The translations under genes and the position numbers were made by a program. Below, piece by piece: positions 30,954 through 60,953 of a DNA stretch of 64,000 nucleotides. The notes under the pieces were generated by a model. That model ran no database searches. It was not told where the DNA came from and saw only the letters and a list, made by a program, of their open reading frames with translations. Each line of letters begins with the position of its first letter. Positions within the stretch are counted from its first letter, which is position 1. This DNA is from Rubellimicrobium rubrum (GTDB lineage: Bacteria; Pseudomonadota; Alphaproteobacteria; Rhodobacterales; Rhodobacteraceae), in contig NZ_VDFU01000013.1 of the NCBI RefSeq assembly GCF_006152115.1, positions 1 through 64,000 on the forward strand. The letters run 5' to 3'.

Positions 30954-31943
30954 TCAAGGCACTATGGCCCTGCGGTCCTGATCGAGATCGGCCAAGCGCT
31001 GGCGGAAGAACGGCACGGTCCGTTCAAGCCCTTCATCGAGCGGGACCGTAGGGCTCCAGTTCAGGAGGGAGCGGGCGAGGGTGATGTCGGGACGCCGCTG
31101 CTTGGGATCGTCGATCGGCAGGGGGCGCCGCTCGATCCGCGAACGGCTTCCGGTCAGTGCGAGAACCTTTTCGGCGAGTTGAAGAATTGTGAACTCTCCC
31201 GGATTGCCGATGTTGATCGGGCCAGTCACCTGATCGTCCGATTCCATCAAACGCATCAGCCCGTCGACCAGATCGTCCACGTAGCAGAAGGATCGGGTCT
31301 GTCCGCCGTCCCCATAGACGGTAAGCGGCTCGCCCTGCAGCGCCTGCATGATGAAGCTCGATACGACCCGGCCATCGGCATGGTGCACCCGGGGACCGTA
31401 GGTATTGAAAATCCGCGCGACCTTGATCTGGAGGTCGTGCTGCCGATGGTAGTCGAAGAACAGCGTCTCTGCGCATCGTTTGCCTTCGTCATAGCACGAC
31501 CGCGGCCCGATCGGATTGACGTGGCCCCAATATCGCTCTTCCTGCGGATGAACCGTCGGGTCGCCATAGACCTCGGAGGTCGAGGCCTGCAGCACCTTGC
31601 AGCGCAACCGCTTTGCAAGGCCCAGGGCGTTCATCGCGCCAAGCACTGACGTCTTGGTGGTTTGAATCGGATCGAGTTGATAATGGATCGGCGATGCCGG
31701 ACAGGCGAGATTGTAGATCTCGTCGACTTCGACATAAAGCTGTTGCGTCATGTCGTGGCGAATGAACTCGAACCGTGGATGGCTATGGAGGTGATCGATG
31801 TTCCGCTTCGTACCCGTGAACAGATTGTCCACGCAGATGACCTCGTGACCCTGATCCAGCAATCGATCGATCAGATGTGAGCCGATGAACCCCGCCCCTC
31901 CCGTGACCAGGATGCGTTTACGGCTGTCATAAAGTCTGGCCAT
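30954..31943 (-). CDS. UDP-xylose synthase-like (UDP-glucuronate decarboxylase) SDR epimerase
   Basis: The 329-residue extended SDR has the NAD-binding GGAGFIGSH (15-23), the catalytic region STSEVYG (121-127) with E124, and active-site Y151-X3-K155 (YDEGK). [21 protein letters not shown] with [11 protein letters not shown] is the typical UXS pattern, and [13 protein letters not shown] and [12 protein letters not shown] follow the same family. It makes UDP-xylose from UDP-glucuronate for glycosylation. Start at 31943, because the preceding 45 residues have no conserved content. It is leftward, 247 bases after the GT61 gene, at the end of polysaccharide region I. Confidence 0.9.
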
Positions 31944-32190
31944 TCGTGAGAACTCTCTTGGAAATCGGCAGGGCTGGCGGGGAGGTCGACCGTCCAGAAT
32001 ATGCATCACGCATTCATTACAGGAGCCTAAAGACAGCTCATTGGTCTGTCGCGTCGGAAACCGTTGTGAGAAGGACACGGGCGATGAGGCCGGAACCGGT
32101 CCGGTTCATGGCATCGGTCGAAACCTGATGGACTTCGATGGGACCCGTGCGGCTCACGGACCAACCGTCCGGGTAGGCTTTCCCCCAACG

Positions 32191-33228
32191 TCAGATCAGA
32201 TCCAGTGTCTTTTGGACCTCGGCCGCGTTCACCTCGAACTCGGCAGAGCCTCCGGACCCGATGACATAGGCGTAGCGCTGGTCCTGCCGGTCGGTGAAGA
32301 TCTTGAGCTGGGCCACCACGCGCTCTGGCGGTTGCAGCACGAACAGAGTGGCTTTCGGTGGCATGAGCATAATGCCATGGGTGAGATGGCTGCCTTCGAC
32401 ACCGGCCACAACCTCGGCACCGCCACAATCCTCCAGAATGCGGGCGACGCTCGCCGTGGCTGGATCGAGAATGCGGAAGCCCCGCGTCCGCGCAAGCTCC
32501 TCGGCGATGGCAGCCTCGTTCCGGAGCAGACGCCGGTCTCCGGTCAACCCGCGCAGGATGAAAACCCCGGCGTGCGACGGAGGGGTTCGGCCCGCCAGCA
32601 CACGACGCCGGAGATCGGCAGCGCGGGCAGCGCGTCCCGCGTTGTTGGCAAGATCCTGAAAGAACACGAGGTCTTGGAAATGTACGGCGTCTGTCCGGTA
32701 AGGCTTCATGCCAAGAAGGGCCTCGTATTCGGGCATGTGCCCACCGGATGCCGTCCGTGACGTAACAGGTCGGCCGTGCGCCTCTGCCAGGCGGTAGGTC
32801 AGGCAGTCCTCGGCCAGCCAACTTGCGAACCAACGATTGCCCAGCCAGCTTTCGTACAACACGCCGTCCAGGCATTCCGTCGGCGGCGGATAGGCAAGCT
32901 GCTGCCATGGCCGGGCACGCAAGTGGCGAACCGAGCGGCGTCCATAGAGAACACCGCCCACCAGATCGACGTTCTTGACGCGGAAGCCCAGCGTCTCCCC
33001 TTCCACGATCTCGAAGTCGCCGGCAAAGCTGCGCTGGATATCGGCGGCGTCCGAGAACAGCGTTGCCCGCATCCGGTCCAACTGGCCGGGCAGGCAGATC
33101 GCGGGCGGAATATACGCGACAGAGGCCGGCATCTCGACCCAGCGTTCGACTGCCTCGGCCTCCAGATCGTGATAAGGACGCTTCGCCACCTTCCAAACCC
33201 GATCAAGGGCAGGCTTGAAGGAGATCAT
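32191..33228 (-). CDS. glycosyltransferase family 61 (DUF563-type)
   Basis: The 345-residue protein has the GT61 C-terminal half: GVFILRGLTGDRRLLRNEAAI (quoted in part), GFRILDPATASVARI, and the conserved nucleotide-sugar signature GVEGSHLTHGIML with MPPKATLFVLQPP. Bacterial GT61 members add xylose, arabinose or similar residues to capsule or lipooligosaccharide. There is a UDP-xylose synthase-like gene next door, which makes xylosyl transfer a reasonable inference. It is overlapped at its start by the Cys-rich gene (ATGA), so the pair is translationally coupled. Confidence 0.85.
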   Translation of the reverse strand: MISFKPALDRVWKVAKRPYHDLEAEAVERWVEMPASVAYIPPAICLPGQLDRMRATLFSDAADIQRSFAGDFEIVEGETLGFRVKNVDLVGGVLYGRRSVRHLRARPWQQLAYPPPTECLDGVLYESWLGNRWFASWLAEDCLTYRLAEAHGRPVTSRTASGGHMPEYEALLGMKPYRTDAVHFQDLVFFQDLANNAGRAARAADLRRRVLAGRTPPSHAGVFILRGLTGDRRLLRNEAAIAEELARTRGFRILDPATASVARILEDCGGAEVVAGVEGSHLTHGIMLMPPKATLFVLQPPERVVAQLKIFTDRQDQRYAYVIGSGGSAEFEVNAAEVQKTLDLI

Positions 33229-34028
33229 GGGGCGACTCCGCCCTCCGAAGCCACGGGCGAGGAGGTCCGCCCCAAGTCGAAGCCGGTGCCGTACCGTGCC
33301 TCGAACCGGTCGGCGAGAGCGCCCAGTTCCTGCGCAAGCGCGGGCTGGTCAAAGACCCGGCCTCGCAGGAACTGTCCCTCGAATAGGGCAAAGACGCTCT
33401 GCGACGGCTCGGTCCGCATCTCCCGCAGACGCCGGAAGGCATGGTCCTTGGCCACCCGATAGGCCTGCAGGTGGAACAGATGCAGCGGGCTGCTGGCAAT
33501 CGCGCCAACGAAGCGGATGAAAAGATCGAGCTGATCAAACGGGATGGACCGGACTTCGCAGACCCGGCCGATCCCTTCCAAGGCCTCCAACTCCTCATAG
33601 ACGCCGAACCGCTGATCGACCCCGGTCAGGCGCCCGTCGATGTCGAGGATGGGAAACAGCGGGTAAAGGCGGCAGACCGTCGGCCTGTGGCCATGGACGC
33701 AAGCGCATCCCGGGCGAAAGCTGACCACGGACTCGAGGGTGATCGCCCGATTGCCGGGCAAGATGAACTCGGACCGCTTGTGCTTGTATTCTCCGAACTG
33801 GTCCAGCCGCCCGGTGCGCTCGAGAAACTCGTACTCTCCCGGCAACAATGGAAGTTCCTGGAAGTGCTTCTTCCCCATGAGCATGAACCGGCTCTTGTGC
33901 CGAGAAAAGCTGCAGCAGTGGGCATCGCCGCACTTGGTCCAGCAATTCGCCTCATAGACGAGGTCCATTGCATAAAGTGCATCCCAATCGACCGCGGAGC
34001 CCCCATTCACGCTAAAACCACCATCCAT
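33225..34028 (-). CDS. Cys-rich YkgJ-like metal-binding protein of unknown function
   Basis: The 267-residue cytosolic protein has two cysteine clusters. The first is C29-X3-C33-X4-C38-C39 (CWTKCGDAHCCS). The second is C108-X-C110-X8-C119 in the pattern CACVHGHRP...CRLYP, with H112 close by. This resembles YkgJ-type proteins thought to bind zinc or iron clusters, with the diagnostic CR-YP. The rest is helical and uncharacterised. It overlaps the GT61 gene, so its role is linked to glycan assembly, perhaps as a metal-dependent modifying or regulatory protein. It could be a radical-type cofactor protein, but no CxxxCxxC is present. Confidence 0.65.
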   Translation of the reverse strand: MDGGFSVNGGSAVDWDALYAMDLVYEANCWTKCGDAHCCSFSRHKSRFMLMGKKHFQELPLLPGEYEFLERTGRLDQFGEYKHKRSEFILPGNRAITLESVVSFRPGCACVHGHRPTVCRLYPLFPILDIDGRLTGVDQRFGVYEELEALEGIGRVCEVRSIPFDQLDLFIRFVGAIASSPLHLFHLQAYRVAKDHAFRRLREMRTEPSQSVFALFEGQFLRGRVFDQPALAQELGALADRFEARYGTGFDLGRTSSPVASEGGVAP

Positions 34029-34257: not shown

Positions 34258-35586
34258 TCAGTCCAAACCCACCGTTGCAACGTCGGAGGCTTGGTGCGTC
34301 TGCCCGGGGTCCTGAGCCGATCCGCGGTCGCTGTCTGCCTCTTGGCCCAGATACCAGCCGCGTGTCACGTCGCGGAACCGCGCGCCCTCGACCAGCACCT
34401 CATGGGGTGGGCCATGGCTTATGAAATGGAGCGGGCTTGCGGTCAGGCCATAGGCTCCGCTGGAATGCACCGCAACCAGATCCCCTTCTTCGATGCGCGG
34501 CATTGATACGCCCGTCGCCAACCGGTCGATCGAGGTGCAGAGCGGCCCGACGAGGTCGATCTTCTCGGCAGGCGCGCCACCGCCGACCCGGTGCATTCGG
34601 TAATTGCGGCGGATGACCATGCCGAAGTGACCCGAGGCGGGAAGATGGTTGTTCATGCCCCCGTCGCAGATGCCGATCCGCGTCCCGCGCGACTCCTTGA
34701 CCGAGGTGACCTGCGTCAGGAAGTACCCGGCCTCCCCGACCAGATACCGTCCCAATTCGAGCACGAGGCGCGTGTCCCGAAACCTCGGTTCAGCTTTCAG
34801 GGCATCGAGATCGGGGCCAGCGCCGTCGGCCACTGCCATGAGATCGAGCGGGTTGTCCTGGTCGTGATAGGGAATGCCCAAGCCCGATCCGAAGACCAAC
34901 GTCTCGGGGCGGAGATCCAGGTCCTCGCAGACGCTGCGGAAGACCTCGATGAAGATGCGGTAGTTCTCGCATATGGCTTCGGGCCTCAGGGATTGAGTGC
35001 CCGAGTAGATGTGCAGCCCGACAACCCGAAGATGCCGCAACGCCATGATCCGCCGCAGATCGTCACCTGCCGTCTCGACATCCAGGCCAAACGGGCTGGG
35101 CCGGCCGGCCATGTGGTCGCCGAACCCCTTCGGCACTCGGGCAGGTGACAGGCGGATCAGAACGTCCTGCCGCCGCCCCAGACTTTGGGCCACACGGTCC
35201 ACGGCCACGGCCTCGCGAAGGCTTTCAAGGACCATCTCCCCGACACCGCCGGACACCGCATCGACGATCTCGGCCGTCCGCTTGCCGGGCCCGGTGAAAC
35301 TGGCCCGGTCCGCGCCCCAGCCCGCAGCCTGGGCCAGCCTGAACTCCCCGATGGAGGACACGTCCACGCGCTCCACTCGATCGGCGAGCCACCGCAGCAA
35401 TTCGGGATTGGGATTGCACTTGGCTGCATAGCTGAAGCTGAACCAAGGCCCGAGCGCGGCACGAAGTTCGGACAGGCGACGTTCGATGGCGTCGGTCAGA
35501 TAGACATAGGCGGGCGTGCCAATCGCATCGGCTACCTCGCGCAGCAGATCATCGAGGGCGGTCGCATCAGAGCCGGGAAGTGACAT
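34258..35586 (-). CDS. PLP-dependent decarboxylase, type III fold (exosortase-A-associated type)
   Basis: The 442-residue fold-III PLP protein is like diaminopimelate/ornithine decarboxylases. The PLP lysine is K56 in YAAKCN. GLHIYSGTQ (191-199) gives the His stacking on the ring. ELGRYLVGEAG (277-287) and GPLCTSID (347-354) supply the dimer-interface Cys/Asp, and SSGAYG (375-380) the Tyr. Sequence pattern and gene order match the exosortase-A-associated family (TIGR03099). It follows an ACP gene with a 20-base overlap. It probably decarboxylates an amino acid on or for the carrier protein, but the substrate is unknown. Confidence 0.88.
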   Translation of the reverse strand: MSLPGSDATALDDLLREVADAIGTPAYVYLTDAIERRLSELRAALGPWFSFSYAAKCNPNPELLRWLADRVERVDVSSIGEFRLAQAAGWGADRASFTGPGKRTAEIVDAVSGGVGEMVLESLREAVAVDRVAQSLGRRQDVLIRLSPARVPKGFGDHMAGRPSPFGLDVETAGDDLRRIMALRHLRVVGLHIYSGTQSLRPEAICENYRIFIEVFRSVCEDLDLRPETLVFGSGLGIPYHDQDNPLDLMAVADGAGPDLDALKAEPRFRDTRLVLELGRYLVGEAGYFLTQVTSVKESRGTRIGICDGGMNNHLPASGHFGMVIRRNYRMHRVGGGAPAEKIDLVGPLCTSIDRLATGVSMPRIEEGDLVAVHSSGAYGLTASPLHFISHGPPHEVLVEGARFRDVTRGWYLGQEADSDRGSAQDPGQTHQASDVATVGLD

Positions 35587-35803
35587 ACGCCTCGATCCTC
35601 TGGGCGGTGTCAAAGTTCTCCAGCGTGACGTCGCTCGCCCGGACCTCGATCTTGGCGTTCTCCTCGACGAAGCCGATCAGGTTCAGCATGGCGACGGAGT
35701 CCAGCACCCCTGTCGAGAACAGCGCGCTTTCGGGGTCGATCGGCTCGTCCACGTTGAGCTCGCCCTTGAGGAACTCGATCACGTCGTGGCTAGTCAGGGA
35801 CAT
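35567..35803 (-). CDS. acyl/aminoacyl carrier protein
   Basis: The 78-residue protein has the ACP four-helix pattern with the phosphopantetheine Ser at S36 in GVLDSVAMLNLI (the DSV motif). It is short and acidic, FSTGVLDSV being typical for standalone carrier proteins of amino-acid activation modules. The start at 35803 is 10 bases inside the ligase gene, and the stop is 20 bases inside the decarboxylase gene, so the three are co-translated. A phosphopantetheinyl transferase must come from elsewhere. Confidence 0.85.
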   Translation of the reverse strand: MSLTSHDVIEFLKGELNVDEPIDPESALFSTGVLDSVAMLNLIGFVEENAKIEVRASDVTLENFDTAQRIEAYVTSRL

Positions 35804-37398
35804 CGAACATCTTCTCCAACAATGGCGGTCAGCCCGGCTTTCGAACGCGAGATCACCTGAGGTCGGTCCAGCTTTCCACTGGCGGTGCGCGGCATGGGCC
35901 CGGCCCATGGCTGGATGCGGCGCGGCACCATGTAGTGAGGCATCGCACGTCTGCAGTAGGCCATCATGGCCGCCCCGCTGAAGCCGTCGAGGGGCGTCAG
36001 GGCCACGTGCACCACCTGCCCCAGATCGTCGTCCTCGACGCCATAGGCCACGATGTCCGCCGCGAGCCCACTGCGCGACACCAGATCCTCGACCTCCGTC
36101 GGGCTCAGTCGGAAGCCGCTCGTCTTGATCATGTCGTCCATCCGCCCGACGAACCACAGGTCTCCATCCTCATCGACGCGGACGAGGTCGCCACTGTAGA
36201 CGACGGGCGCGTCGCCGATCAGGTCGGAGAGTTCCGGACAGGGCCGGATCTTCTGGGTGGTCAGATCAGGCCTCTGCCAATACCCCAGGCTGACCAGCGG
36301 CCCAGCGTGTACGAGTTCCCCCTGCTCCCCCGGGCCCGCAAGGCCCGCACCGTGCTTCACGACGAAAACTTGGGCGTTCGGAACAGCTTGTCCGATGGAG
36401 CCCATCTTCTGGCTGAACTTCTCGGGCGGCAGAAAGGTGGATCGGAACGCCTCGGTCAGCCCGTACATCAGATAGATGTCCACGCCCGGAAAGACGGCCG
36501 GCATAAGCTCCAGGATATTGGGCGGCAGTTTGCCCCCCGTGTTGGTGATCCGCCGCAGCGACGGCATCGTCGCGCGAGTCTCGTCCAAGTATCGAACGAC
36601 CTGATTCCAGAGTGGCGGGACACCGGCAAAGCCCGTGACCGCGTGGTCGCGCACCGTCCTGACCAGTTCCGACGGGATCGCGACCGGTTGGTGGACCACC
36701 GATCCGCCGACCCGGAGCATCGTGGTAAGCTGGTTCAGCCCCGCGTCGAAGCTGTAGGGCAGCACGCTGAGGAGCCGATCATCCTCGCCCAGGTGGAGGT
36801 AGTCGATCACCGTCTCCGCCCCGATGCAGATGTTCGCATGGGTCAGCATGACGCCCTTGGGCATTCCGGTCGATCCGGAGGTGTAGATGATCATGGCCAG
36901 GTCGCCTTCAGAGACCTTGACCTCTGAGCCTTGCGCCGGTCCAGCACCCATCCGGGCCACCGCGTCAAAGCCCGGCGGAAGCCCTTCGTCGGCTCCGGCG
37001 ACCAGCAGCCGCTGAAGCGTCGCGGGGCGGGACCAGCTGGACAAGGGGCGAAGCCCTTCGCGCCCGATGATCAGCGCCTTGGCTTCGCAGTCCGAGGCGA
37101 CGTAGCCCAGTTGTTCAGGGGTCCATTGAACGTTGACGTTTACGACGACCGCGCCGATCTTGGACGCGCCGAGCATGGCCGCGACCTCGGGAATGCCTTT
37201 GCGCACATGGACGATCACCCGGTCGCCCGGCAGGACCCCAATGCCCGCGAGGCTGGCCGCCACTCGGTCCACCTCTTCGGCGAGTCCGGCGTAGGTGATG
37301 CTACGGCCACCTGCGTCGCCATCGATGAGCGCGATCCTGTCCGCGTGGCCCGGAAGGTTGTCCCCCAGAAGGCGATAGATGCTGCGCCCCCCGCTCAC
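35794..37398 (-). CDS. AMP-forming acyl/aminoacyl ligase (exosortase-A-associated type)
   Basis: The 534-residue ANL-superfamily enzyme has the phosphate loop YTSGSTGMPKG (about 172-182), the YGLTEAF motif near 316, the SGDL...GR-DD-IK hinge near 410-435, and the C-terminal catalytic lysine in ASGKLDR. It adenylates a carboxylic or amino acid and loads it, most likely on the adjacent carrier protein. The start is GTG at 37398, because it overlaps the upstream stop as GTGA and has GGAGG with a 6-base spacer; the first GTG of the longer frame is too close. The match to TIGR03098-type ligases is by gene order and pattern. Confidence 0.88.
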   Translation of the reverse strand: MSGGRSIYRLLGDNLPGHADRIALIDGDAGGRSITYAGLAEEVDRVAASLAGIGVLPGDRVIVHVRKGIPEVAAMLGASKIGAVVVNVNVQWTPEQLGYVASDCEAKALIIGREGLRPLSSWSRPATLQRLLVAGADEGLPPGFDAVARMGAGPAQGSEVKVSEGDLAMIIYTSGSTGMPKGVMLTHANICIGAETVIDYLHLGEDDRLLSVLPYSFDAGLNQLTTMLRVGGSVVHQPVAIPSELVRTVRDHAVTGFAGVPPLWNQVVRYLDETRATMPSLRRITNTGGKLPPNILELMPAVFPGVDIYLMYGLTEAFRSTFLPPEKFSQKMGSIGQAVPNAQVFVVKHGAGLAGPGEQGELVHAGPLVSLGYWQRPDLTTQKIRPCPELSDLIGDAPVVYSGDLVRVDEDGDLWFVGRMDDMIKTSGFRLSPTEVEDLVSRSGLAADIVAYGVEDDDLGQVVHVALTPLDGFSGAAMMAYCRRAMPHYMVPRRIQPWAGPMPRTASGKLDRPQVISRSKAGLTAIVGEDVRCP

Positions 37399-38012
37399 CA
37401 CGTCCCTCCGCTCCGGCCGGTGCCATTGTCGCCCTGGGATGCCCCTTTGGCAACGAACGGGGTCAGCCGCGCGAAGACCCGTCCGGGCGAGCCGATCACG
37501 ATGGAGTCCGAGGGCACGTTCCGCGTGACCGCCGTGTTGGCCCCAATGCGAACGCGGTCCCCGACCCGGATCGGTCCGAGCACGGCACTGTTCACGCCGA
37601 TGAAGACATCGTTCCCGATCACGGGAGCGCCAGGGCCCATGTTGGTCCCGATGGTCACGTTGTGCATCACCCCGACCCGGTCACCGATGACCACATCGGG
37701 GTGGATCGACAAGGAGCCCTCGGCATGGATGATGTGGAAATCCTCGCCAATGATCGCCTCGGGCGAGATCCAGACCTTGGTGATGTTGAGAACGAACAGC
37801 CTCAGGACTCCATAGCCCTTGCTGGCAACCCATCGCCCGACCGGGTTCCTGACTTTCAGGGCCCAATTCCCATACCGATAGATGAGGAGCGAGATCAGCG
37901 CGGGCTCCGCCAAGGACCGGCCATGACGCTCGTAATCCCCACGCACCACGGCGAACCAGGATGGCTTCTCGCGCGACCGCTCGTGTTTGGAACCAAGATC
38001 CTCAAGCAACAT
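37395..38012 (-). CDS. left-handed beta-helix acyltransferase (CysE/serine acetyltransferase-like)
   Basis: The 205-residue protein has an N-terminal amphipathic helix region with the CysE-like pattern YGNWALKV and a run of hexapeptide repeats from about residue 90 to 175: EGSLSIHPDVVIGDRVGVMHNVTIGTN (partial), then PVIGNDVFIGVNSAVLG and VGDRVRIGANTAV, ending NVPSDSIVIGSPGRV. It transfers acetyl or another acyl group from a CoA or a carrier protein. CysE in biosynthesis would be elsewhere; here the placement as first gene of the ligase-ACP-PLP module suggests O- or N-acylation of the glycan or transfer from the ACP. GTGA overlap with the ligase. The start is chosen at 38012, because the upstream part is Cys-rich without family match. 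Confidence 0.82.
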   Translation of the reverse strand: MLLEDLGSKHERSREKPSWFAVVRGDYERHGRSLAEPALISLLIYRYGNWALKVRNPVGRWVASKGYGVLRLFVLNITKVWISPEAIIGEDFHIIHAEGSLSIHPDVVIGDRVGVMHNVTIGTNMGPGAPVIGNDVFIGVNSAVLGPIRVGDRVRIGANTAVTRNVPSDSIVIGSPGRVFARLTPFVAKGASQGDNGTGRSGGTW

Positions 38013-38575: not shown

Positions 38576-39853
38576 CTAGGGACTTGGGTTTACAGCGTCG
38601 CCGCGGTCCTGCCGCCAAATGTCCGGCCGCCCTTCGACAAAGCGGATGATCTGGGCCGCTGCGGACCGGTGATCCTTCAGGGACGGATGCCAATCGCAGG
38701 CCGTGCGTTCCATCTCGGGCAGGGCGAGGAGTGCGACCCGCAAGTCGCCTGCCTCGCGAAGCGTTTGGACGATGGCCTCCTGAGCGGCCAGGTAGGTGGC
38801 ACCATAATCCCTCAGTGCGACAAGGAGGATGAACGCATCGGGGTTCCTCACCCTGAGATGACGGATGAAGGCGCGGTAATGGGCCTCAAAGTCCTGGCGC
38901 AGCGCAGTCTCGTCGGGCCACTGCTCCCCAAGCCCCAACGGCAGCGCGAAATCGTTCGATCCCAGCGCCAGCACGAGCAGATCCGGCCGCCAAGCCGCGC
39001 CACTCCAGGGCGATGGCTCGCCGAACACCACCCTAGGATAGAGGGACATCATCGTGTGGCCCGGATCGGGCGGACCGTAATTTCGAACAAGGCCGATACC
39101 GGAGGCGGCCATGATCTGGTAGTCGGCCCCGAAATGCCGCGCGATCTGGGGCGCGAACGACCTTGCGGTATCGGTCCACTGAAAGATCTCCTCGTCCGTG
39201 CAATCCCTGTGGGGGGCCATGTTTCCATAGCCCACGCTGTCAGAATCTCCGACGAACTCGATCTGCCGCCCCAAGGGTCGGGGGGGCGGAGCGGACAATC
39301 CACCGCGTGGAACATGGAAGCCCAGGAAGCTGCCGGGCTCGGAGGACTGGCTGACCTTGTCGAGCCGAACCTCGTGGCGCCCCGGCCCCAGGCCCGAGAT
39401 CAGGAAAGCGCGCCGCTCCGGTCGAGTGATCAGGACGACTGGACCTGCCCCATCGTCGACGGTGATCCTGTAGCGATTGATCGGGTCGTCGAAGGCCACG
39501 GCCAGCGCGTCGCCACCGAAGGCCGCCTCGGCGTAGATCCCCGGCCACTGGTGCCGGATCCCTGTTCCTGGAGTCTCCGACCGGACCTCGGCCACGCGGC
39601 CCATGACCCTGGACGGCAGCGCCCGACCGCCGGCGGCGACAAGGTCTTTCAGATTTGTCTCCGTTATCACGGGGGCGGCCGCTGAACCTGTCGTCTCGAT
39701 AAGAACGTGCTCGGCCGATGCACGGATCGGCTGCGGGAGGGCAGTGGCCCGAGCGATGACTCGGTCCTGCTGCCAAGCGATGGTGAAAAGGGACAGGACA
39801 AGGACCAGAAAGGTCGACATCGCTGTCAGCCGCGCCACAATGCGTCCCCACAA
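38576..39853 (-). CDS. SGNH-type carbohydrate esterase (CE2 family-like)
   Basis: The 425-residue protein has one signal-anchor at about residues 12-28, a beta-rich N-terminal domain (40-190) and an SGNH hydrolase domain with GDSDSVGYG (202-210; nucleophile S204), GSND (298-301) and D387-X-H389 in DWHPS. This two-domain layout fits CE2 acetyl-esterases that deacetylate polysaccharides. The start is ambiguous: TTG 39853 preserves positive charges before the anchor, GTG 39838 has GGGG upstream, and ATG 39820 is the plain option. It probably faces the periplasm. It is the counterpart of the acyltransferase upstream. Confidence 0.8.
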   Translation of the reverse strand: MWGRIVARLTAMSTFLVLVLSLFTIAWQQDRVIARATALPQPIRASAEHVLIETTGSAAAPVITETNLKDLVAAGGRALPSRVMGRVAEVRSETPGTGIRHQWPGIYAEAAFGGDALAVAFDDPINRYRITVDDGAGPVVLITRPERRAFLISGLGPGRHEVRLDKVSQSSEPGSFLGFHVPRGGLSAPPPRPLGRQIEFVGDSDSVGYGNMAPHRDCTDEEIFQWTDTARSFAPQIARHFGADYQIMAASGIGLVRNYGPPDPGHTMMSLYPRVVFGEPSPWSGAAWRPDLLVLALGSNDFALPLGLGEQWPDETALRQDFEAHYRAFIRHLRVRNPDAFILLVALRDYGATYLAAQEAIVQTLREAGDLRVALLALPEMERTACDWHPSLKDHRSAAAQIIRFVEGRPDIWRQDRGDAVNPSP

Positions 39854-40360: not shown

Positions 40361-41878
40361 TCACTGGGCCGGCACGGGCTGCGGCGTTCCGGCAGGCCTG
40401 CTCTCGGCCGTCTCGACAGCCTGCAGGTCCTCGTGCCCCAAGTTCGTGCCAAGGGTGAAGTTGACGAGGTCAGACACCGTGAACCGGCCCTCGACCGGTC
40501 CCAGGTGCGGCTGCCAGTCGGGCTCCTGAACCACGTAGGACGCCTTGTCGGCCTCGAGGATCGCGGCAAAGGTGCGGGCGACGATCTGCGCTCCGACCCC
40601 CGCCAGGCGCTGGCCGCCTGTCAGCACTTCGGCTTCCCGCAAGATGTAGAACCAGAGTGGCGCCGGACCTTCTCCGCCCGGCACAGCGTTCCAGATCTGG
40701 GCGTCGGTCAGCTTGCGTACGCCCCTAAAGTGCCGCGCCACATCCTGACCGCTAGGCAGCCGCGCATCCAAGCCGCGCTGGAGGTTGCGAGCCGCCAGGG
40801 ACCGGGTCGTCGCATCCGCGGAACCGACTTCGGCTGTGCTGGGATCGAGCACCGTGTTCGGCAGCCGCAGCAACGCCGTCGAGATACGGATATCGATGAG
40901 CTTGCCCGGCTGGGCGGTCGGACCGAAGAACGCCTCCCAGTCGATCCGGAGTTCGGGCGGAACCGCGCGGCGCCCTCGCAGGTCGCCCACGCTTTCGGGC
41001 GCGTCGGCGACATCCGGAAAGATCCCCGCGGCCCGAACCGGCTCGGCGCCCGGCGCGCTCAGCAGATAGCCCGGCCTTACCTGGCTGTGCCCGAATCGAT
41101 AAGCGGCCACGCTGAACTCGACCGGCATGAAGGCGCCGCGCTCGTCCGTGAAGCGGAACGGCATATGCTCCAGCGCCCGCCCGATCGCGCGCCGGCCGAC
41201 CGTTCGAGGCAGGAACTCGTTCACGACGATCCATTGATAATGCCAGCGCACGAGGTGCTGGGCCTCCTCGAAGCGCTCCTGAATGCCCATGGATGGGTCG
41301 GTGTGGTCGTCGAAGACCTTGTTGTGGAACATGAGCATCAGACGGTGGAACTGGGACACGACGATGTTCTCGTCGTTCCGTGGGTCACCGATCAGCGCGA
41401 TGCCCTCGCTGTTACGGGGGACGTCGGCGCCGTCGGGACCAAGCAGCAGCCGCCCCGGGTTGTTCTTCTCGTACAGATAGGGCTGCACCTTGGGGCCGAG
41501 GCCATAGACGCTGTCGAGTTCCAGCGCCGGTGTGCGGAAGTTGCGGGTCGCGTGCGGGTCGATCTGCTGCTCTAGCGTCGAGGTGGCATCGAGCGTCAGG
41601 TCGTGGTCGATGAACTGACCCAGAAAGGTATACCCGGCCTTGATCCGGGGATTGTTCTGCGTCGTATCTCGGGGGCCGGGTGAGTCGCCGTCCATGGGCC
41701 CCCCGACTTTTCCAAGCTCGGCAGGACCGGGCTTGAAGCTCTTGAGGGAGCGGAGATAGGGCAGCATGCGCCCGAAACGGCCGGTCTCGGCGAAACGGCC
41801 CCGCGGCACGTCGCCGCCACGATCAAACCTGGACGGGCCATAGCCGCCGCCATGAGCGGGATTGTACTTATAATCCAT
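40361..41878 (-). CDS. animal-type haem peroxidase (peroxidase superfamily)
   Basis: The 505-residue protein shows the animal-haem-peroxidase pattern: GYTFLGQFIDHDLT with the distal H92, GDPRNDEN (165-172) ahead of a helical FHRLMLMFHN, and proximal H264 in YRFGHSQVRPGY. No signal peptide is seen after the start at 41878, so secretion would need another route. Bacterial members oxidise halides or phenolic and lipid substrates with hydrogen peroxide. It is unusual inside a polysaccharide locus. The start MDYKYNP is favoured over an upstream extension of 19 hydrophobic-basic residues with no ribosome site. Confidence 0.85.
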   Translation of the reverse strand: MDYKYNPAHGGGYGPSRFDRGGDVPRGRFAETGRFGRMLPYLRSLKSFKPGPAELGKVGGPMDGDSPGPRDTTQNNPRIKAGYTFLGQFIDHDLTLDATSTLEQQIDPHATRNFRTPALELDSVYGLGPKVQPYLYEKNNPGRLLLGPDGADVPRNSEGIALIGDPRNDENIVVSQFHRLMLMFHNKVFDDHTDPSMGIQERFEEAQHLVRWHYQWIVVNEFLPRTVGRRAIGRALEHMPFRFTDERGAFMPVEFSVAAYRFGHSQVRPGYLLSAPGAEPVRAAGIFPDVADAPESVGDLRGRRAVPPELRIDWEAFFGPTAQPGKLIDIRISTALLRLPNTVLDPSTAEVGSADATTRSLAARNLQRGLDARLPSGQDVARHFRGVRKLTDAQIWNAVPGGEGPAPLWFYILREAEVLTGGQRLAGVGAQIVARTFAAILEADKASYVVQEPDWQPHLGPVEGRFTVSDLVNFTLGTNLGHEDLQAVETAESRPAGTPQPVPAQ

Positions 41879-42491
41879 TATCGTAACCCTCACTTTGAAA
41901 TCAACTGATCGAACCAAAAAAAGCCGAATAACCAAAAGGCTTGGGCCAGCTTCTCAGGCGGCCTTTAACTCCATACTGAATTGGATCCCCTGAGCAGGGA
42001 TCAGACGCTGTCATCCCGCATTTCGCAGGCTTTCGAGCGCGGTCGGCAAAATTCCGATCTGTCCCGATCATTACCACAAAATTCGCAACGTGAAAAACTG
42101 TTTCTGGCCCTTATTGTCGGCTTCGGCCGACCCGCGCTAAAGCTGAAGGCGAAACTGCCGTCGCCGGGAGTTGGCTCATTCCCCCCTTGCGGGATCCGGA
42201 CCCCCGCCCGGTTCTGAAGGACCGACCTGCGCCCGACAGTGCGGACCGGCTTGCCCAGGTGATCGCCGATCCAGCGGGTCCTCGCCCGCCCCCCTCTGGC
42301 ATCGCCGCCATTCAGGGCGCATCTTGGTCCTTCGACTAGCGTGTCGGAAATCGGGGCATGCCGGCGTCGGGTCCCCCGCATGCGACGTCGCACTGCTGCG
42401 AAGCCCTGGAACAGACTGGTACGATTCCGATGGGGGATGATGTTGACGACCCCTGATACCCACTCCTATGTGCCAAGTTGATGAGACTGAT
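41879..42491. other. divergent region between peroxidase and deacetylase
   Basis: About 610 bases. It should carry promoters for both divergent genes. The A+T-richer part is near 42040-42110. No RNA or repeat was identified. Confidence 0.4.
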
Positions 42492-43461: not shown

Positions 43462-44778
43462 CTAGATCGTCGGCGAGGTTCCCTGAACCCGTCGCGCTGT
43501 CTCCCCCTTGAGGGCCGCTATCGCGGTCCGACGTTGCGGTGATGCGGCCCGCGCCTCGCTTCGGAAGCGAAGGCCAAAAATCAGGGCCGTGACGGACAGC
43601 ACCGTATCAGGCTGAAATTGTTGATACGCCACCACCTCGACGGAGCTCATGGTCGCCTGCTTGACCATGAACATGGCGAAGAACAAGGCAGTGGCGCTGG
43701 AGGCAGCGAGGGTCCATCGCCCAATGAGGACCAGAGTGGCCAAGAAGGCCGCAAGTTGAATGAGGATGCCGGCAATACCGATCTCCACGGCGTTCGAGAT
43801 CCAGGTGTTGTGGAAATGGAAGCCCGATTTGGTTGCAATGCCGAACTTCGCCCAAAGGGCTTCGGCCAAGGGGTGACCGGGAACCCAGAAGGCGCGGAAC
43901 CCTTGCCCAAGAACCGGCTGCCGGGCGATCTCGCCGAAGGCCACGGACCAAAGGTCGGTCCGGCCGGTCAGGGTCACGTCCTTACCAGTGGTTTCGAGGA
44001 AAAGAGCCGCAAGCTCGGTTCGGAATTCCCAGGCCACAAGACCACTGGCGGAGGCCCCGAGCAGGATCAGGAGCACCAAGAGGACTCGGAGGCCCGAGGT
44101 GAGGTAACGGGAGATAGCCAGCATCACCCCCAGTCCGGCGACAAGCATCGTGCTCACCAGCGCCCCCGTCGATTGCCCCATCACGATCAGGAACAAGCCA
44201 ACCAGCAGACCTGCGAGGCCGAACAGGCGGTCTTTTTGACTGCTCTGACGGCTCAGGACAAAGGCAAGGCCCATGAGGGTGAGCGTGGACATGGTATACG
44301 AAAGCTCGTTCTTGCTCCCAAAGATGCCGAGCCATCCCAAGCCGTCCGACCTAACCCGTCCGAACGCCAGGCTGCAAACCGCCGTGACGGCGTAGGCGCC
44401 AAAGGCTGCGCGAAGAAAGGTCCGGGGCGACAGCCGCGAGGCCATGACGATCGCGACGACAAAGGTCATGGCGAGCTGGATCCCGTATCTCAGCGTCACC
44501 GATGGGTAATTCGACCAGAACCAGCTCAGAAGGCACCAGCCCGGCACAAGGAGGACGGGCCAGAACCTGATGAGGTCCGTCGCGCTCTCGCGGGGCGAGC
44601 GGAGGATCAACAGCATCAACGTCGCCAAGAAGGCCAGGGCAGCCAGGGTCCCGAACCAGGCTGTGAACAGCAGAGACAGGAAGACGAAGGCCGAGAGGAT
44701 TGCGTTCGGACAGATTTGGATCTCTCGGGCGCGCTCGGCTGACCGGAATGATGGCGACGGAATTGGCCTGGCTGTCAT
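43462..44778 (-). CDS. O-antigen ligase/Wzy-type polymerase (ExoQ-like)
   Basis: The 438-residue multi-pass membrane protein has about 10-12 hydrophobic segments, and the Wzy_C-type periplasmic loop with TGRTDLW...QPVLGQGF and the FHFHNTW motif (near residue 315), the hallmark of O-antigen ligase/polymerase proteins. It would polymerise the repeat units flipped by the Wzx protein. It begins with an ATGA overlap at the end of the uncharacterised upstream frame (44775-45602). Confidence 0.88.
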   Translation of the reverse strand: MTARPIPSPSFRSAERAREIQICPNAILSAFVFLSLLFTAWFGTLAALAFLATLMLLILRSPRESATDLIRFWPVLLVPGWCLLSWFWSNYPSVTLRYGIQLAMTFVVAIVMASRLSPRTFLRAAFGAYAVTAVCSLAFGRVRSDGLGWLGIFGSKNELSYTMSTLTLMGLAFVLSRQSSQKDRLFGLAGLLVGLFLIVMGQSTGALVSTMLVAGLGVMLAISRYLTSGLRVLLVLLILLGASASGLVAWEFRTELAALFLETTGKDVTLTGRTDLWSVAFGEIARQPVLGQGFRAFWVPGHPLAEALWAKFGIATKSGFHFHNTWISNAVEIGIAGILIQLAAFLATLVLIGRWTLAASSATALFFAMFMVKQATMSSVEVVAYQQFQPDTVLSVTALIFGLRFRSEARAASPQRRTAIAALKGETARRVQGTSPTI

Positions 44779-45602
44779 TCGATGGTGTCCCGGGTGCAGA
44801 GGGCCGGCTCCGGCAGTTGCCCCTCGGCTCGGGGTGGGGCGCAGGCGACCCGGCCTATAGCAAGGGCCAGGGGCCGCCCCGAATCGGCGGACTTGCTTAG
44901 GCGGTTCCTAGTCTTCGTCGTGTTCCGGTGACCCAAGTTGATCGCCCGCGCCAGCTCAGGCACCTCCCCTTCGGCCAGCTCGTCCGCACGCGCTCTGTCG
45001 GTATATGAACGCGCGCGGTCAGGGTTCCCGGTGGAGGTGCAAGCCTGGCCCTCAATGCCCGGCTCTCCCCCATCCCGCAGACACATAACGCGGGAGCAGG
45101 TCGGCCAGTCCGGACTATCGAGGGCCGGCTGGACCTGTCGGGTGTCACGGGCGAGGTTCTCGACATCGACATCGCCGTGGGATGCGCCTCGGGCCGGACC
45201 GAAATAGGTGCCGAGGTTGGCATTGACGCCGCTGGCGAATTCGGTGCGCATACGGGCCTTGAACGAGCCTTGAAGGGAAGCTGCATGAGTCTGGGTTTCG
45301 GTGGACAGCCGGTCGTTCCCCTCCGGGTAAGCAGTCGAAAGCGTCAGACCCGACAGGTTGTCCCACATAGCGACCTTGCCGCGAAACCAGGCGCAGGCCT
45401 GCCTGTCGCCGTTCGACCCGCCGTCCAAGATGCACCGGGAATCATTGTCCAGACTGGTGGAACCCTTGCGGAATGCGACGCCCGGCTGGGCGGCCGGGCA
45501 CGGCGTGCCAAACGTCAGTCCGTTCCCACGGACCTGACCAAAAGCACCCGCCATCTGATGTCTCATAACCACGTCACCGTTCTCCGACCTGTCCGGCATC
45601 AT
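44775..45602 (-). CDS. uncharacterised frame translationally coupled to the O-antigen ligase
   Basis: The 275-codon frame ends in a 4-base ATGA overlap with the O-antigen-ligase gene, a sign that it may be translated. The predicted protein has Asn/Asp/Gly-rich patches (LDNDSRCILDGGSNGD, FASGVNANLGTYFGPA) in the middle but Arg- and Pro-rich ends. No signal peptide, membrane segment or known domain is recognised. It may be a diverged or decaying glycan-locus gene, or a chance frame; codon-position bias could not be computed. Confidence 0.35.
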   Translation of the reverse strand: MMPDRSENGDVVMRHQMAGAFGQVRGNGLTFGTPCPAAQPGVAFRKGSTSLDNDSRCILDGGSNGDRQACAWFRGKVAMWDNLSGLTLSTAYPEGNDRLSTETQTHAASLQGSFKARMRTEFASGVNANLGTYFGPARGASHGDVDVENLARDTRQVQPALDSPDWPTCSRVMCLRDGGEPGIEGQACTSTGNPDRARSYTDRARADELAEGEVPELARAINLGHRNTTKTRNRLSKSADSGRPLALAIGRVACAPPRAEGQLPEPALCTRDTIE

Positions 45603-48110: not shown

Positions 48111-50486
48111 TCAGCCTCGTGTACCCGCCGCTTCCTGATAGTAGGCCGAATAGGCGGGCTGCATGTCCGTCGCAGAGTAGCGCGGCAGTGCCTTGAGATC
48201 GACAAGGTTCAGGACGATGCCGAGCAACCGGCTGCGGACCAGCGGGTCATGGGCCAGATTGTACGAGATCGCCTTGCGGGGTGTCTGCCCCCATGCTGCC
48301 ACCATGACGACCTGATCGACGAAGTTCAGGCAAAGACGGGCGTCGATCACGGGGCCGAGTGGGGCCAAATCCAGGACGATGAAGCGGAAGGTGTTCCGTG
48401 CCTCGGCCAGCATCCGTTCCAGGCTCGGAGAGCTCAGGACGTCGTAGGCCAGCGACCCGAGATTCGGTCCCTCGGACCCAATCACGTCGACCCCGGTACT
48501 GCCCATTTCGGTCATGGCATGTTCGACGGGAACTTGGTTCGTCGCAATCGAGGTCAGCCCGCTCCGCCCGGTGAGCCCCAGGCGAAGGCTCAGATCCGCC
48601 TTCCGCAGGTCGGCATCGATAAGGAGCGTCCTTTGCCCACCGGCCGCAAGAACGGCCGCCAAGTTCATGGCAACAGTGGTCTTTCCCTCACCAGGGTTCA
48701 GCGACGTCACGCCGATGATGCGGGCACCCTCGCCGGGCAGTGCCAGGTCGGACGCCAGGCGGATGCTGCGGAGGGTCTCCGTGAACTGGGACTGTGGCCA
48801 TCGCAGCACCGGGAGGTCCACGTCGGGAAGTCGGACAGGTTGGGGGGGCAGGGCCTCCGACTCAAGGAGGATGGTTTCCGGGCCGACCACCCTTCTGCGG
48901 CGCGGCCCCGGCAGGCCGCCGACAGCCGGCAGATACCCTAGGAAACGCTGGCCAAGCCGTTCCGTCACATCAGAGCCGGTCCGGACGAACCGCTCGCGCT
49001 GTTCCCGTAGGCCTGTATGGAGCGCCGCAGCCATAAGACCGAGGATCATTCCCAGACCCAGAGTTCTGACCGTGCTCGGCGAGCTGGGGTCCAGCGGCAC
49101 CGTCGCCAGCGACAGGACCCGCACGTTGGAGACCGGAAGCGTCCGCTGCTGGTTCGCGCGCTCGGCTTGGATGAGGAGCGCTTCGTAAAGGTTTGACACC
49201 GCTTCGGCCCGCTGCTCCAAGGCACGTAGTTCGATGAGGGCCTGACCTGCAACGGCGTTGGCCTCGACCAGCTTCGCCAAGGTCTCGCGCAGCGCCGTGA
49301 CCCGTTCGGAGGCCACGTCGAGGCTGCCCCGCGCCCGCGCCGCCGCCTGCTGCGTCTCGTTGTAAAGGCGGCTGGCGAGGTCATCGATCTGCGCCTCGAG
49401 CCTTACCAGTTCCGGGTTCTCCGCGCCGAAGTTCTCGAGCACCTCGTCGCGGCGGGCGAGGAACTGGTCGAACTCCTGCTGGAGGATGGAGACCGGCTCG
49501 TCATTGTTCGGAATCAGCACACGCGTGCCCCGATCCTTCAGGGCCTCGGGGCCCATGGCTAGGACGGATTCATAGGCGGCCACCAGAGCCCTGCCCCTCG
49601 CCTCATCGGCAAGCGCCACGGCGTATTCGTCATTGACGCGCCGGACGCTGTCGCTGCTGATCAGGCCTTCGGCCGACTCCACGAGGCCGTTCTGGACGCG
49701 GAACCGTTCGACGGCGGTGAGAGCCTCCCGCGCTTCGTCGCCCAACTCCGCGATCCGCAGGCTCAGCCATGTGGCGGTCTGCTCGTTGACGGCTTGGTTG
49801 GCTTCGACGATGTCCTCCGTGTAGCCTTGGACATAGGCGTTGGCGAGATCGGCCGACAGTTCCGGGGATTGGGTCTCGAAGATGATGGTCAGGGCGCTGC
49901 TTTGGCCGATCCGGTAGATGCGGACCCGCTGCTGCAATCGATCGGCGACGCCCTCGCGCAGACGTTCCTGCTCCATCTCGGGGGTCACGACGACCTCCGG
50001 CGTAGCTGCGGGCGCTTCGCCGCCCGTCAGGGGGCTCAGCAGGCTGCGGATCACGTTCTTGATTTGGCCGGTCATGAGGGCCAGTTGCGACTGTCGTTCG
50101 GAGAGATAGCGTTCGTCCTGGGTCAGGTCGAGTTGATCGACCACCCGGAGGGCCAGCCTCTGCGACTGCAGGACCTGCAGAGCGTTCTCGATGGTGATCT
50201 CCGACACGCTTTCGCCATCGACGAGTGTCACCTCGTCGATGTTCGTATTGGTCTGCCCGGTGAGGAGGAGCACGGCGCTTGCCTGGTAGCTCTTGGGCGT
50301 CGTGGCCAGATGTGCGATCCCGGCGACAAGGCCGAGCAGCACCCAGGCCACGAAGATCCATCTCTGCCGGCGGACGGCTGCGGCAATCTGGCCGAGGTCC
50401 AAGGTCGCCTCGCGGGTGTTATGGTCCGGAGCTTCGGAGTCCATGCGCCTGCTGCTGTCGGCGATGTTGAGAGCCATGCGCGTCAA
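48111..50486 (-). CDS. Wzc/ExoP-type polysaccharide co-polymerase and tyrosine autokinase
   Basis: The 791-residue protein has a Wzz-type N-terminal periplasmic domain between membrane segments (about 43-62 and 495-515), a long coiled-coil middle, and a C-terminal BY-kinase domain: Walker A LNPGEGKTT near 596, Walker A' TLLIDADLRK near 625, Walker B FIVLDLAP near 710, and a Tyr-rich tail with YSAYYQEA at 780-787. It controls chain length and export. Translation likely starts at TTG 50486: AGGAG lies 6 bases upstream, and TTGA overlaps the preceding gene's stop. The ATG at 50477 is the alternative. Confidence 0.92.
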   Translation of the reverse strand: MTRMALNIADSSRRMDSEAPDHNTREATLDLGQIAAAVRRQRWIFVAWVLLGLVAGIAHLATTPKSYQASAVLLLTGQTNTNIDEVTLVDGESVSEITIENALQVLQSQRLALRVVDQLDLTQDERYLSERQSQLALMTGQIKNVIRSLLSPLTGGEAPAATPEVVVTPEMEQERLREGVADRLQQRVRIYRIGQSSALTIIFETQSPELSADLANAYVQGYTEDIVEANQAVNEQTATWLSLRIAELGDEAREALTAVERFRVQNGLVESAEGLISSDSVRRVNDEYAVALADEARGRALVAAYESVLAMGPEALKDRGTRVLIPNNDEPVSILQQEFDQFLARRDEVLENFGAENPELVRLEAQIDDLASRLYNETQQAAARARGSLDVASERVTALRETLAKLVEANAVAGQALIELRALEQRAEAVSNLYEALLIQAERANQQRTLPVSNVRVLSLATVPLDPSSPSTVRTLGLGMILGLMAAALHTGLREQRERFVRTGSDVTERLGQRFLGYLPAVGGLPGPRRRRVVGPETILLESEALPPQPVRLPDVDLPVLRWPQSQFTETLRSIRLASDLALPGEGARIIGVTSLNPGEGKTTVAMNLAAVLAAGGQRTLLIDADLRKADLSLRLGLTGRSGLTSIATNQVPVEHAMTEMGSTGVDVIGSEGPNLGSLAYDVLSSPSLERMLAEARNTFRFIVLDLAPLGPVIDARLCLNFVDQVVMVAAWGQTPRKAISYNLAHDPLVRSRLLGIVLNLVDLKALPRYSATDMQPAYSAYYQEAAGTRG

Positions 50487-51457
50487 GAAGAACTCCTATC
50501 GGGAGGGGTCGCCGGGACGTCTGCCCCGGTGGCACCGCTCTCGTATCCGTAAAGCGTCAGTGAGCGAAGGCCGAGTAGGCTCGACGCGGCACCCACATGA
50601 AGGCAGCCCCGCAGCAGAGCGCGGTTCCGTCGTTCCCTGGAGTATGCGATTGGCACCGCCATGGCCAGACAGGCGCTGGCCTTGGCCGCCGCGACCGCCG
50701 CCAAGCCTGCGCGCCGGACCGGAGAGGCGTCGCGACCGATCAGCAGTCCATGTGTCTGTCCCATACGAAACCGGCGACGAAAGAGCCATCCTGCGTTCGC
50801 GCGGTCTGCGGGAACATGCTCCCAGGCGAGCGCCAAAGGCGCAGCCAGCAACACCGCCCCGGCGGCCTTGGCCGCGGCGAAGAACTCGGTGTCCTCGCCT
50901 CCCGATTGGCCGAACCGGAGGTCGAAGCGCCGCCCCGTGAAGGCGGGAGTCTTCAGTGCCACCATGGCGTTGCCAGTATGGCCCGTTCGGACCCGGCCGG
51001 CCAGGTCGATCTCGGGCTGCATGTCATGGAACCGTCCGGCCCGAATCCAACCCGGAGCCTCGTCCGAGTGGATGCCCGAAATGGGACCGAAGACGGCATC
51101 GGCTCCGGTGTGCTCCAGCGTCGCCAACAGGGTCGAGAACCAGTCCGGACCGACCCATTCGTCGTCGTCAAGAAACGCCAGGGCATCCGCGCCCAAAGCT
51201 TCGGCCTCGGCCAGAACTCCATTCCGGGCAATCGAGATGTTGCGAGCCGGACAGTGGAGATAGGTGATCGGCACCCCCGTCTGTTGTGCGACCCGTTCGA
51301 CCAAGGGCCTTGCACTGGGGGTGCCGTCGTTGTCCGCCACGACGATCGTGGTCTCGACCCCGACGGGCGTGACCTGCGCTATCAGCGAGACCAGCGTCCG
51401 TTCCAAACTCGCACGCCGGAAGGTGCACACCCCAAGGACCGCGCGCCGGACCTTCAT
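50483..51457 (-). CDS. glycosyltransferase family 2
   Basis: The 324-residue GT-A enzyme has VLGVCTFRRASLERTL (7-22), VVADNDGTPSA, and FLDDDEW (DxD-type) at 94-100, then a catalytic-side GGEDTEFF (about 186-193). The C-terminal part has hydrophobic segments. Its stop overlaps the TTG start of the co-polymerase gene and its own start overlaps the next gene by ATGA, so it is part of a long operon. The sugar specificity is unknown. Confidence 0.9.
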   Translation of the reverse strand: MKVRRAVLGVCTFRRASLERTLVSLIAQVTPVGVETTIVVADNDGTPSARPLVERVAQQTGVPITYLHCPARNISIARNGVLAEAEALGADALAFLDDDEWVGPDWFSTLLATLEHTGADAVFGPISGIHSDEAPGWIRAGRFHDMQPEIDLAGRVRTGHTGNAMVALKTPAFTGRRFDLRFGQSGGEDTEFFAAAKAAGAVLLAAPLALAWEHVPADRANAGWLFRRRFRMGQTHGLLIGRDASPVRRAGLAAVAAAKASACLAMAVPIAYSRERRNRALLRGCLHVGAASSLLGLRSLTLYGYESGATGADVPATPPDRSSS

Positions 51458-59157: not shown

Positions 59158-59204
59158 GGGTTGGCAACCCGGCCGATCTGGTCATCGTTGTGCATCAGCA
59201 TCGC

Positions 59205-60668: not shown

Positions 60669-60871
60669 CGGGAATCCAGGCGTCGGGATAGGACGAAGTC
60701 GGTCCTGCAGGGCGTCACAGCATGGTTTCATCCCGTTCCGGGAAAGGGAAGCCCAAGCTTAGCGACAAAGGTAATTCTGCAACGCTTCACTGGCGCCATG
60801 GGGCCGCCAGAAACGATGGGCGGCCCAGCTTGCAGATGTATCGAAATCAAGCGGGATGGATCGGGTCTGAT

Positions 60872-60936: not shown

Positions 60937-60953
60937 CCGATCTTCGGCTCTGG

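Follow-up and report, generated by a model that had tools for sequence, protein, structure and literature searches.

Several described systems resemble the five-gene cassette that we report here from a 64,000-nucleotide stretch of Rubellimicrobium rubrum DNA (contig NZ_VDFU01000013.1), which we call the window. In D-alanylation, DltA and DltC are an amino-acid ligase and a small carrier protein that serve a cell-surface polymer, and this Dlt system is not known to include a decarboxylase. In the butirosin system, the amino acid is linked to the carrier protein BtrI by its side-chain carboxyl. BtrJ of that system is not known to be an ANL (adenylate-forming) ligase, and we know of no left-handed beta-helix (LbH) enzyme or GT61 glycosyltransferase in it. 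The fold-III decarboxylase BtrK acts on the carrier-bound acidic amino acid, as its PDB name "L-glutamyl-[BtrI acyl-carrier protein] decarboxylase" states. The aminobutyryl-type group is finally attached to the aminoglycoside, at one of its amino groups (PMC11405602). In the vicenistatin system, an ANL ligase (VinN), a stand-alone acyl carrier protein (ACP; VinL) and a pyridoxal phosphate (PLP) decarboxylase (VinO) act in this order. VinN loads 3-methylaspartate onto VinL, and the thioester is needed before VinO decarboxylates (PMC11284099). Asp230 of VinN coordinates the amino group, and Lys330 and Arg331 are key residues located on the beta13-beta14 loop, which is shortened (PMC11253843). 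A further ligase and decarboxylase occur beside XrtA (exosortase A), and NCBIfam names them by this co-occurrence as "exosortase A system-associated".

The cassette in the window encodes a GT61 glycosyltransferase, an LbH acyltransferase, an ANL ligase, a stand-alone ACP and a fold-III PLP decarboxylase (Table 1). It shares the carrier protein and the decarboxylase with butirosin, whose product, in contrast, is a small antibiotic. It shares the order of ligase, ACP and decarboxylase with vicenistatin, whose product primes a polyketide synthase. Compared with Dlt, it has a decarboxylase in addition. The XrtA-associated trio has hydrolases 1 and 2 and XrtA, whereas the cassette has GT61 and the LbH enzyme. 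We think that the five genes probably form a self-contained pathway for attaching an omega-aminoacyl group to a glycan or glycoconjugate.

A five-gene cassette separate from XrtA

Four of the genes run leftward at 34258-38012 and overlap one another, by 4 bases (GTGA) between acyltransferase and ligase, 10 between ligase and ACP and 20 between ACP and decarboxylase. An earlier note on this DNA, made from the letters alone, had described this arrangement and named the four families. Coordinates and overlaps were correct on the sequence, and Pfam bore out the family calls as well as that of the GT61 neighbour (PF04577, 44.0 bits against a cut-off of 27).

Related loci were collected by a scan of a named genome collection in which the decarboxylase was the only query. 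The scan used exact peptide patterns of the query and detects only close relatives, and several contigs were cut. It returned 46 loci from Rhodobacterales, Rhizobiales, Sphingomonadales and a few metagenome-assembled genomes of other groups. The distribution is sporadic, in soil and water bacteria, and the hosts include named strains of Hyphomicrobium, Neorhizobium, Paracoccus, Gemmobacter and Novosphingobium. ACP relatives were found in 44 loci, ligase relatives in 43, acyltransferase relatives in 42 and GT61 relatives in 39. Of the 46 loci, 42 have acyltransferase, ligase, ACP and decarboxylase in this sequence on a single strand. The four exceptions were L006 and L032, in which fewer genes were found, L010, in which the acyltransferase open reading frame (ORF) was fused in the gene call and was not counted, and L050, which had distant decarboxylases only and was dropped from later counts (n=45). 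An ACP relative lies beside the decarboxylase in 44 of the 46 loci, with the two genes overlapping in 39 of these 44. The recurrence of the four genes in a fixed order is more than chance.

GT61 is also a core member of the cassette, unlike in the four-gene set of the earlier note. The order GT61-LbH-ligase-ACP-decarboxylase on one strand, with GT61 first, was found in 35 of 45 loci. GT61 lies downstream, as in the window, on the same strand in L018 and L025 and on the opposite strand in L029 and L010. It was not found in L007 (a short contig), L011, L031 and L033; L006 and L032 are the loci with fewer genes. No sixth family recurs as widely across the loci; the next best reaches 7 genera. Among 198 genomes of the window's family, its own included, the acyltransferase was present in 3 (E 1e-40), GT61 in 4 (1e-30) and the decarboxylase in 5 (1e-80). 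The same 3 genomes hold all three genes, which adjoin in the two other than the window's.

The best NCBIfam matches of ligase and decarboxylase were TIGR03098 and TIGR03099, and the kinship to the XrtA-associated trio that the earlier note had recognized is borne out. However, neither protein reached the cut-off (509 bits against 592 and 358 against 478, respectively). The window genome (4.6 Mb, 104 contigs, 99.98% complete) was searched as a whole. Its sole exosortase match lies on contig 47 and is an XrtE (VPEID-CTERM type; 494 bits with TIGR04162, whose cut-off is 150); the cassette is on contig 5. The statement that no exosortase is visible is true at the locus. The best match to the XrtA profile TIGR03109 in this genome scored 29.8 bits (cut-off 208), no gene exceeded the cut-off of TIGR03098 or TIGR03099, and hydrolase 1, the only one of the two hydrolases searched genome-wide, reached 25.3 bits (cut-off 168).

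We compared these profiles across the phylum in 398 genomes. Of these, 62 gave a TIGR03099 match at E ≤ 1e-85, which was over the cut-off in 29. XrtA was over its cut-off in 26 of these 29 genomes and in 0 of the other 33 by hand count (Fisher p 1.7e-14, which is too small because the genomes are related). The 33 genomes are a mixed set, and only one (L105) of 12 neighbourhoods read (L097-L108) was the cassette.

The genomes of 42 of the 46 loci were searched for exosortases, leaving out L006, L007, L029 and L050. XrtA was over the cut-off in 8, all sphingomonads, and 7 others had other exosortases below cut-off; the cassette thus occurs without XrtA in 34 of the 42. In a search of 12 genomes, each of the 8 with XrtA had a second decarboxylase, over the TIGR03099 cut-off. 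The distance of this XrtA-side decarboxylase from XrtA is at most about 11 kb in 7 genomes and 58 kb in one. The cassette copy is on another contig than the XrtA locus in 7 genomes and about 450 kb from it in one. Eight XrtA loci were read: ligase and decarboxylase stood side by side in 6, hydrolase 1 was present in 6 and hydrolase 2 in 5, GT61 was in none, and an LbH match was found in one (weak, 44 bits). No blastp relative of either hydrolase was found in the 46 cassette loci.

A quick maximum-likelihood tree of 74 decarboxylases included the window and 21 of the 45 cassette rows; those of L105 and L117-L120 were left out as duplicates of cassette rows. The 37 XrtA-type rows all fell on one side of a branch (Shimodaira-Hasegawa-like approximate likelihood-ratio test, SH-aLRT, 99). 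The cassette rows, which number 22 with the window, fell on another (SH-aLRT 95). BtrK and two lysA-like rows are long branches of unsure placement, BtrK lying outside both clades. In this tree the cassette decarboxylases have a clade of their own, separate from the XrtA type. The cassette is independent of XrtA. The earlier proposal of an XrtA-like trio without an exosortase was right in that the enzymes are kin and XrtA is absent, but the genes are a separate cassette and not a trio that lost its sortase.

The decarboxylases of L006 (binned as Ramlibacter) and L007 (binned as Fimbriimonadaceae) are both on 4-kb contigs and are closely related, with 381 identical residues of 422 and 431. In the tree they group as sisters with the window and L005, so that mis-binning or recent transfer is possible.

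Active-site residues

When a fragment of the ligase around the pocket was used as query, VinN was the top match. With residues counted from GTG 37401, an ungapped alignment over the shortened loop places Asp219 and Arg320 of the ligase at Asp230 and Arg331 of VinN. Both residues are invariant in 43 of 43 cassette ligases, in the window, in 7 of 7 XrtA ligases and in 7 of 7 other ligases. They are also invariant in 36 of 36 ligase pieces, which came from 36 of 38 loci and include some genes of the first set. In contrast, the Arg320 column holds Ala in CmiS6, whose beta-amino-acid substrate lacks a second carboxyl. By this comparison, the ligase has the Asp, the Arg and the shortened loop of a VinN-type pocket.

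Positions 220, 260 and 288 form two fully linked sets among 44 cassette ligases, A/G/T in 17 rows with the window and Y/A/S in 27 rows. XrtA ligases mostly have Y220, and position 260 is not linked in them. The A220/G260/T288 and Y220/A260/S288 sets may mark two substrates.

The ACP scored 23.0 bits with PF00550, just above the cut-off of 20.8. The Asp-Ser of its phosphopantetheine site is invariant in 21 aligned rows, window included. Its match to DltC is weak (32 bits, cut-off 68). An ornithine-lipid or cispentacin carrier protein was rejected, with scores far below the cut-offs.

The nearest solved structure to the decarboxylase is BtrK at 221 bits, compared with 147 bits for the best diaminopimelate decarboxylase. 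The motif GPLCT at the catalytic Cys occurs in 46 of 46 cassette decarboxylases (window and 45 loci) and in BtrK, and the LCT part is shared with the XrtA-associated trio. HxY(S/T)GTQ is also common to the cassette enzyme and BtrK, with 8 of 46 rows deviating from the motif as written. By its nearest solved relative and these shared motifs, the decarboxylase appears to be of the BtrK type. In fold-III decarboxylases, the distal amine of diaminopimelate or ornithine is held by an acidic residue that follows the catalytic Cys. The residue at this position is Thr in all 46 cassette enzymes, in BtrK and in 37 XrtA-type enzymes. A substrate that lacks a distal amine, for example an acidic amino acid on the carrier, would fit this. 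An ordinary DapDC or LysA orthologue was rejected by score (TIGR01048, 228.5 bits against 297.9) and by motif; a better lysA candidate elsewhere in the genome (L003, at C10) has GPVCET, with Glu after Cys. The earlier note had named ordinary coenzyme A (CoA) ligase and DapDC orthologues, or an exosortase elsewhere with this as its standard locus, as findings that would speak against it. The ligase and the decarboxylase are not such orthologues, and the only exosortase elsewhere is XrtE.

For the LbH acyltransferase, the best NCBIfam matches were EpsC at 89.5 bits (cut-off 150) and CysE at 75.9 bits (cut-off 210.65). At the catalytic columns of serine acetyltransferases, W81 replaces the Asp of VDIHP and H96 corresponds to the His of DHATG, both residues being catalytic in those enzymes. 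W81 is invariant, and H96 is replaced by Asn in 2 of 19 LbH rows. With scores below cut-off and no catalytic Asp, the enzyme does not qualify as a serine acetyltransferase of the CysE/EpsC families. It is the only acyltransferase tied to the gene set, and LbH enzymes that use acyl-ACP exist, such as LpxA and LpxD.

Proposed pathway and its alternatives

We propose that the ligase would adenylate the side-chain carboxyl of an acidic, aspartate- or glutamate-like amino acid and load it onto the ACP. The decarboxylase would then take off the free alpha-carboxyl on the carrier to give a beta-alanyl-, gamma-aminobutyric acid (GABA)- or similar aminoacyl-ACP. The LbH enzyme would move the acyl group from the ACP onto a sugar hydroxyl or amine, and GT61 would provide or extend the sugar concerned; it may attach the sugar that takes up or bears the acyl group. 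The third step and especially the fourth are the least certain. The sequences show the families, the gene order, the linkage, the conserved residues and the independence from XrtA, whereas the chemistry of all four steps, the substrate and the acceptor are inferred. The amino acid is most probably acidic and attached by its side-chain carboxyl. Because the decarboxylase needs a free alpha-carboxyl, the thioester would have to be at the side chain if loading precedes decarboxylation, in line with the chemistry and with precedents (VinN/VinL/VinO in PMC11284099, and the PDB name of BtrK). The load-decarboxylate-transfer logic of the earlier note is supported, and the same systems are precedents for its loading-first order.

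We surveyed exopolysaccharide (EPS) genes around 42 cassette loci of at least 13 kb with 15 queries for six EPS gene groups. Seven of the queries came from loci L023 and L049, so the survey is biased towards Rhizobiaceae and sphingomonads and insensitive in other groups; one query (window 51454-52482) was used without a separate family scan. At least two of the six groups were present near 21 of the 42 loci, compared with 0 of 20 control stretches of 20 kb from five genomes other than those of the loci (one control had one group). The window itself encodes a Wzz/kinase-type protein (48111-50486), a Wzy-like protein (43462-44778) and two GT2 enzymes, and 57661-61616 gave NCBIfam matches below cut-off to a flippase, an export-type protein and a sugar phosphotransferase. 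The cassette therefore sits in a polysaccharide region here.

Several observations weigh against the proposed pathway. The queries found no EPS gene near 19 of the 42 loci (L008 was counted among these although it holds a GT2-like ORF of 61 bits). Thirty flanking proteins, a part of the genes of seven EPS-poor loci (L008, L009, L013, L014, L030, L034 and L037), were mostly unrelated or of no known family, notable exceptions being the carbamoyltransferase of L009, the ABC transporters of L008 and L030 and the GT2-like ORF. The embedding among polysaccharide genes in the earlier note is thus true in the window but not general, and a polysaccharide acceptor is not general either. The whole ligase as query ranked an adenylation domain (A-domain) of linear gramicidin synthetase (LgrA) first and VinN eighth or seventh. 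A fold search ranked CoA ligases and A-domains alike, with 4-coumarate-CoA ligases first, and VinN was not among its best 50 matches. Two residues of VinN are not shared: at Phe231, the window and 16 of 43 cassette ligases have A220 and 27 of 43 have Y220, and at Lys330, 43 of 43 have F319. A carboxylate role of VinN Arg331 is presumed. We saw no convincing decarboxylase residues that track the two ligase pocket types, either in the cassette or in XrtA systems. Because the LbH enzyme resembles CysE/EpsC acetyltransferases, it may use acetyl-CoA, and its AlphaFold model is poor (mean predicted local distance difference test score, pLDDT, 60.5).

Since no EPS gene was found near 19 loci, the cassette may be self-contained. 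It stands alone most clearly in Hyphomicrobium (L014, L037), Amaricoccus (L030) and Novosphingobium (L034). From such loci without EPS genes it follows that the acceptor would be either widely made, as a common cell component (lipopolysaccharide core, lipid-linked sugars), or a small molecule. A glycan-type acceptor is likely.

The other readings differ from the proposed pathway in the order of its steps, in its product or in its origin. A small secreted or intracellular glycoside, made by a miniature natural-product cluster, would take the place of a surface polysaccharide in one of them. The stand-alone loci just named fit such a product, one glycosyltransferase would suffice for it, and butirosin and vicenistatin are small molecules. 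However, the lack of a sixth conserved family means that no dedicated exporter is seen across the loci, and half of the loci are among EPS genes; we regard this reading as a minority possibility. Slightly less probable, and in our view unlikely, is that a free acidic amino acid is decarboxylated first and the finished omega-amino acid is then loaded on the ACP, with the rest unchanged. IdnL3, acting on beta-glutamate, is a precedent for this order (PMC11284099), and the missing Phe231 and Lys330 of VinN agree with it. Against it stand the ACP-dependent BtrK as the nearest solved decarboxylase, and the invariant Arg320, which is absent from CmiS6 with its beta-amino acid lacking a second carboxyl.

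In a Dlt- or peptide-like use, which we consider improbable, the amino acid would be loaded and transferred intact, and the decarboxylase would serve another purpose or substrate. The weak match of the ACP to DltC is in its favour, and the ligase resembles the A-domains of nonribosomal peptide synthetases, but the close pairing and frequent overlap of the ACP and decarboxylase genes speak for joint use, and an alpha-carboxyl thioester would leave nothing for decarboxylation. It is very improbable that the genes are a standard XrtA trio whose sortase lies elsewhere or was lost, even though TIGR03098 and TIGR03099 are the best matches and XrtA occurs in 8 of 42 cassette genomes. The window genome has XrtE only, the 8 genomes with XrtA carry a separate XrtA-side decarboxylase, and hydrolases 1 and 2, found in most XrtA loci read, are in none of the 46 cassette loci. 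We rejected a trio minus its sortase on these grounds and on the separate clades. The omega-aminoacyl pathway is our preferred reading.

Surroundings in the window and meaning

The positions of the cassette genes and their neighbours are listed in Table 1.

Table 1. Cassette genes and neighbouring genes, with positions in the window
Feature	Position	Strand	Remarks
LbH (left-handed beta-helix, hexapeptide) acyltransferase, 205 aa	37395..38012	-	Pfam Hexapep PF00132; ATG 38012, stop 37395, further in-frame ATG at 38093; proposed carrier-to-sugar transferase
ANL amino-acid:carrier-protein ligase	35794..37398	-	PF00501 + PF13193; GTG start at 37398, alternatively GTG 37401; end 35794
Stand-alone acyl/aminoacyl carrier protein (ACP), 78 aa	35567..35803	-	PF00550; ATG 35803; LDS phosphopantetheine site
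Fold-III PLP decarboxylase, 442 aa	34258..35586	-	Orn_Arg_deC_N PF02784 + PF00278; ATG 35586
GT61 glycosyltransferase, fifth core gene	32191..33228	-	PF04577
Cysteine-rich protein, 267 aa, between decarboxylase and GT61	33225..34028	-	Outside conserved cassette
CE2-type SGNH esterase	38576..39853	-	PF17996 + PF00657; optional cassette neighbour in Rhodobacterales
NAD-dependent sugar epimerase/dehydratase	30954..32078	-	PF01370; neighbour, not conserved with cassette

The epimerase/dehydratase had been called UDP-xylose synthase-like, which was not established. Its best NCBIfam match is dTDP-glucose 4,6-dehydratase (132 bits against a cut-off of 365), the NCBIfam matches shown were all below cut-off, and a relative was present in 1 of 46 related loci. 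The 267-aa protein overlaps the GT61 gene and contains the Cys motifs CWTKCGDAHCC and CACVHGHRPTVC. It gave no Pfam or NCBIfam match and has no relative in the 46 loci. A relative of the CE2-type esterase, which is upstream of the cassette, lies near the cassette in 8 of 46 loci, all Rhodobacterales. PADLOC gave no match for any of the five cassette proteins, and a defence system was rejected.

Within the polysaccharide region, the product of 40361-41935 (- strand) contains an animal haem peroxidase domain (PF03098). At 54409-56424 (+ strand), a glycanase-like part (beta-glucanase, ExoK) is fused to an RTX-type calcium-binding part, with all matches below cut-off, and a second GH16-like protein is at 44775-45602. 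The G+C content per 2 kb is 61-67% over 28001-64000 and 65-69% in the first 28 kb, with minima of 60.7% at 60-62 kb and 61.2% at 30-32 kb. In the Fertoeibacter locus L009 (520-2388, 11277-13678), the cassette is preceded by the carbamoyltransferase and followed by genes for a carbohydrate kinase and a short-chain dehydrogenase.

The components of the cassette are individually known. No published description of the five-gene combination, its independence from XrtA or its stand-alone spread was found in a search largely without subscription literature. Tentatively, we suggest that this sporadic stand-alone cassette might build an omega-aminoacylated (beta-alanyl- or GABA-like) glycoconjugate on a dedicated carrier, as a surface or small-molecule modification absent from the literature searched, and that by kinship the XrtA-associated trio might be glycan-decoration enzymes rather than parts of protein sorting. 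With a cassette that occurs without XrtA, or together with a distinct XrtA copy, the chemistry can be told apart from the sorting, and both become testable. The prediction is concrete and concerns a genetically small system: an acidic amino acid, a side-chain thioester, decarboxylation on the carrier and an amine-bearing acyl group on a glycan. If true, the amine decoration would alter cell-surface charge.

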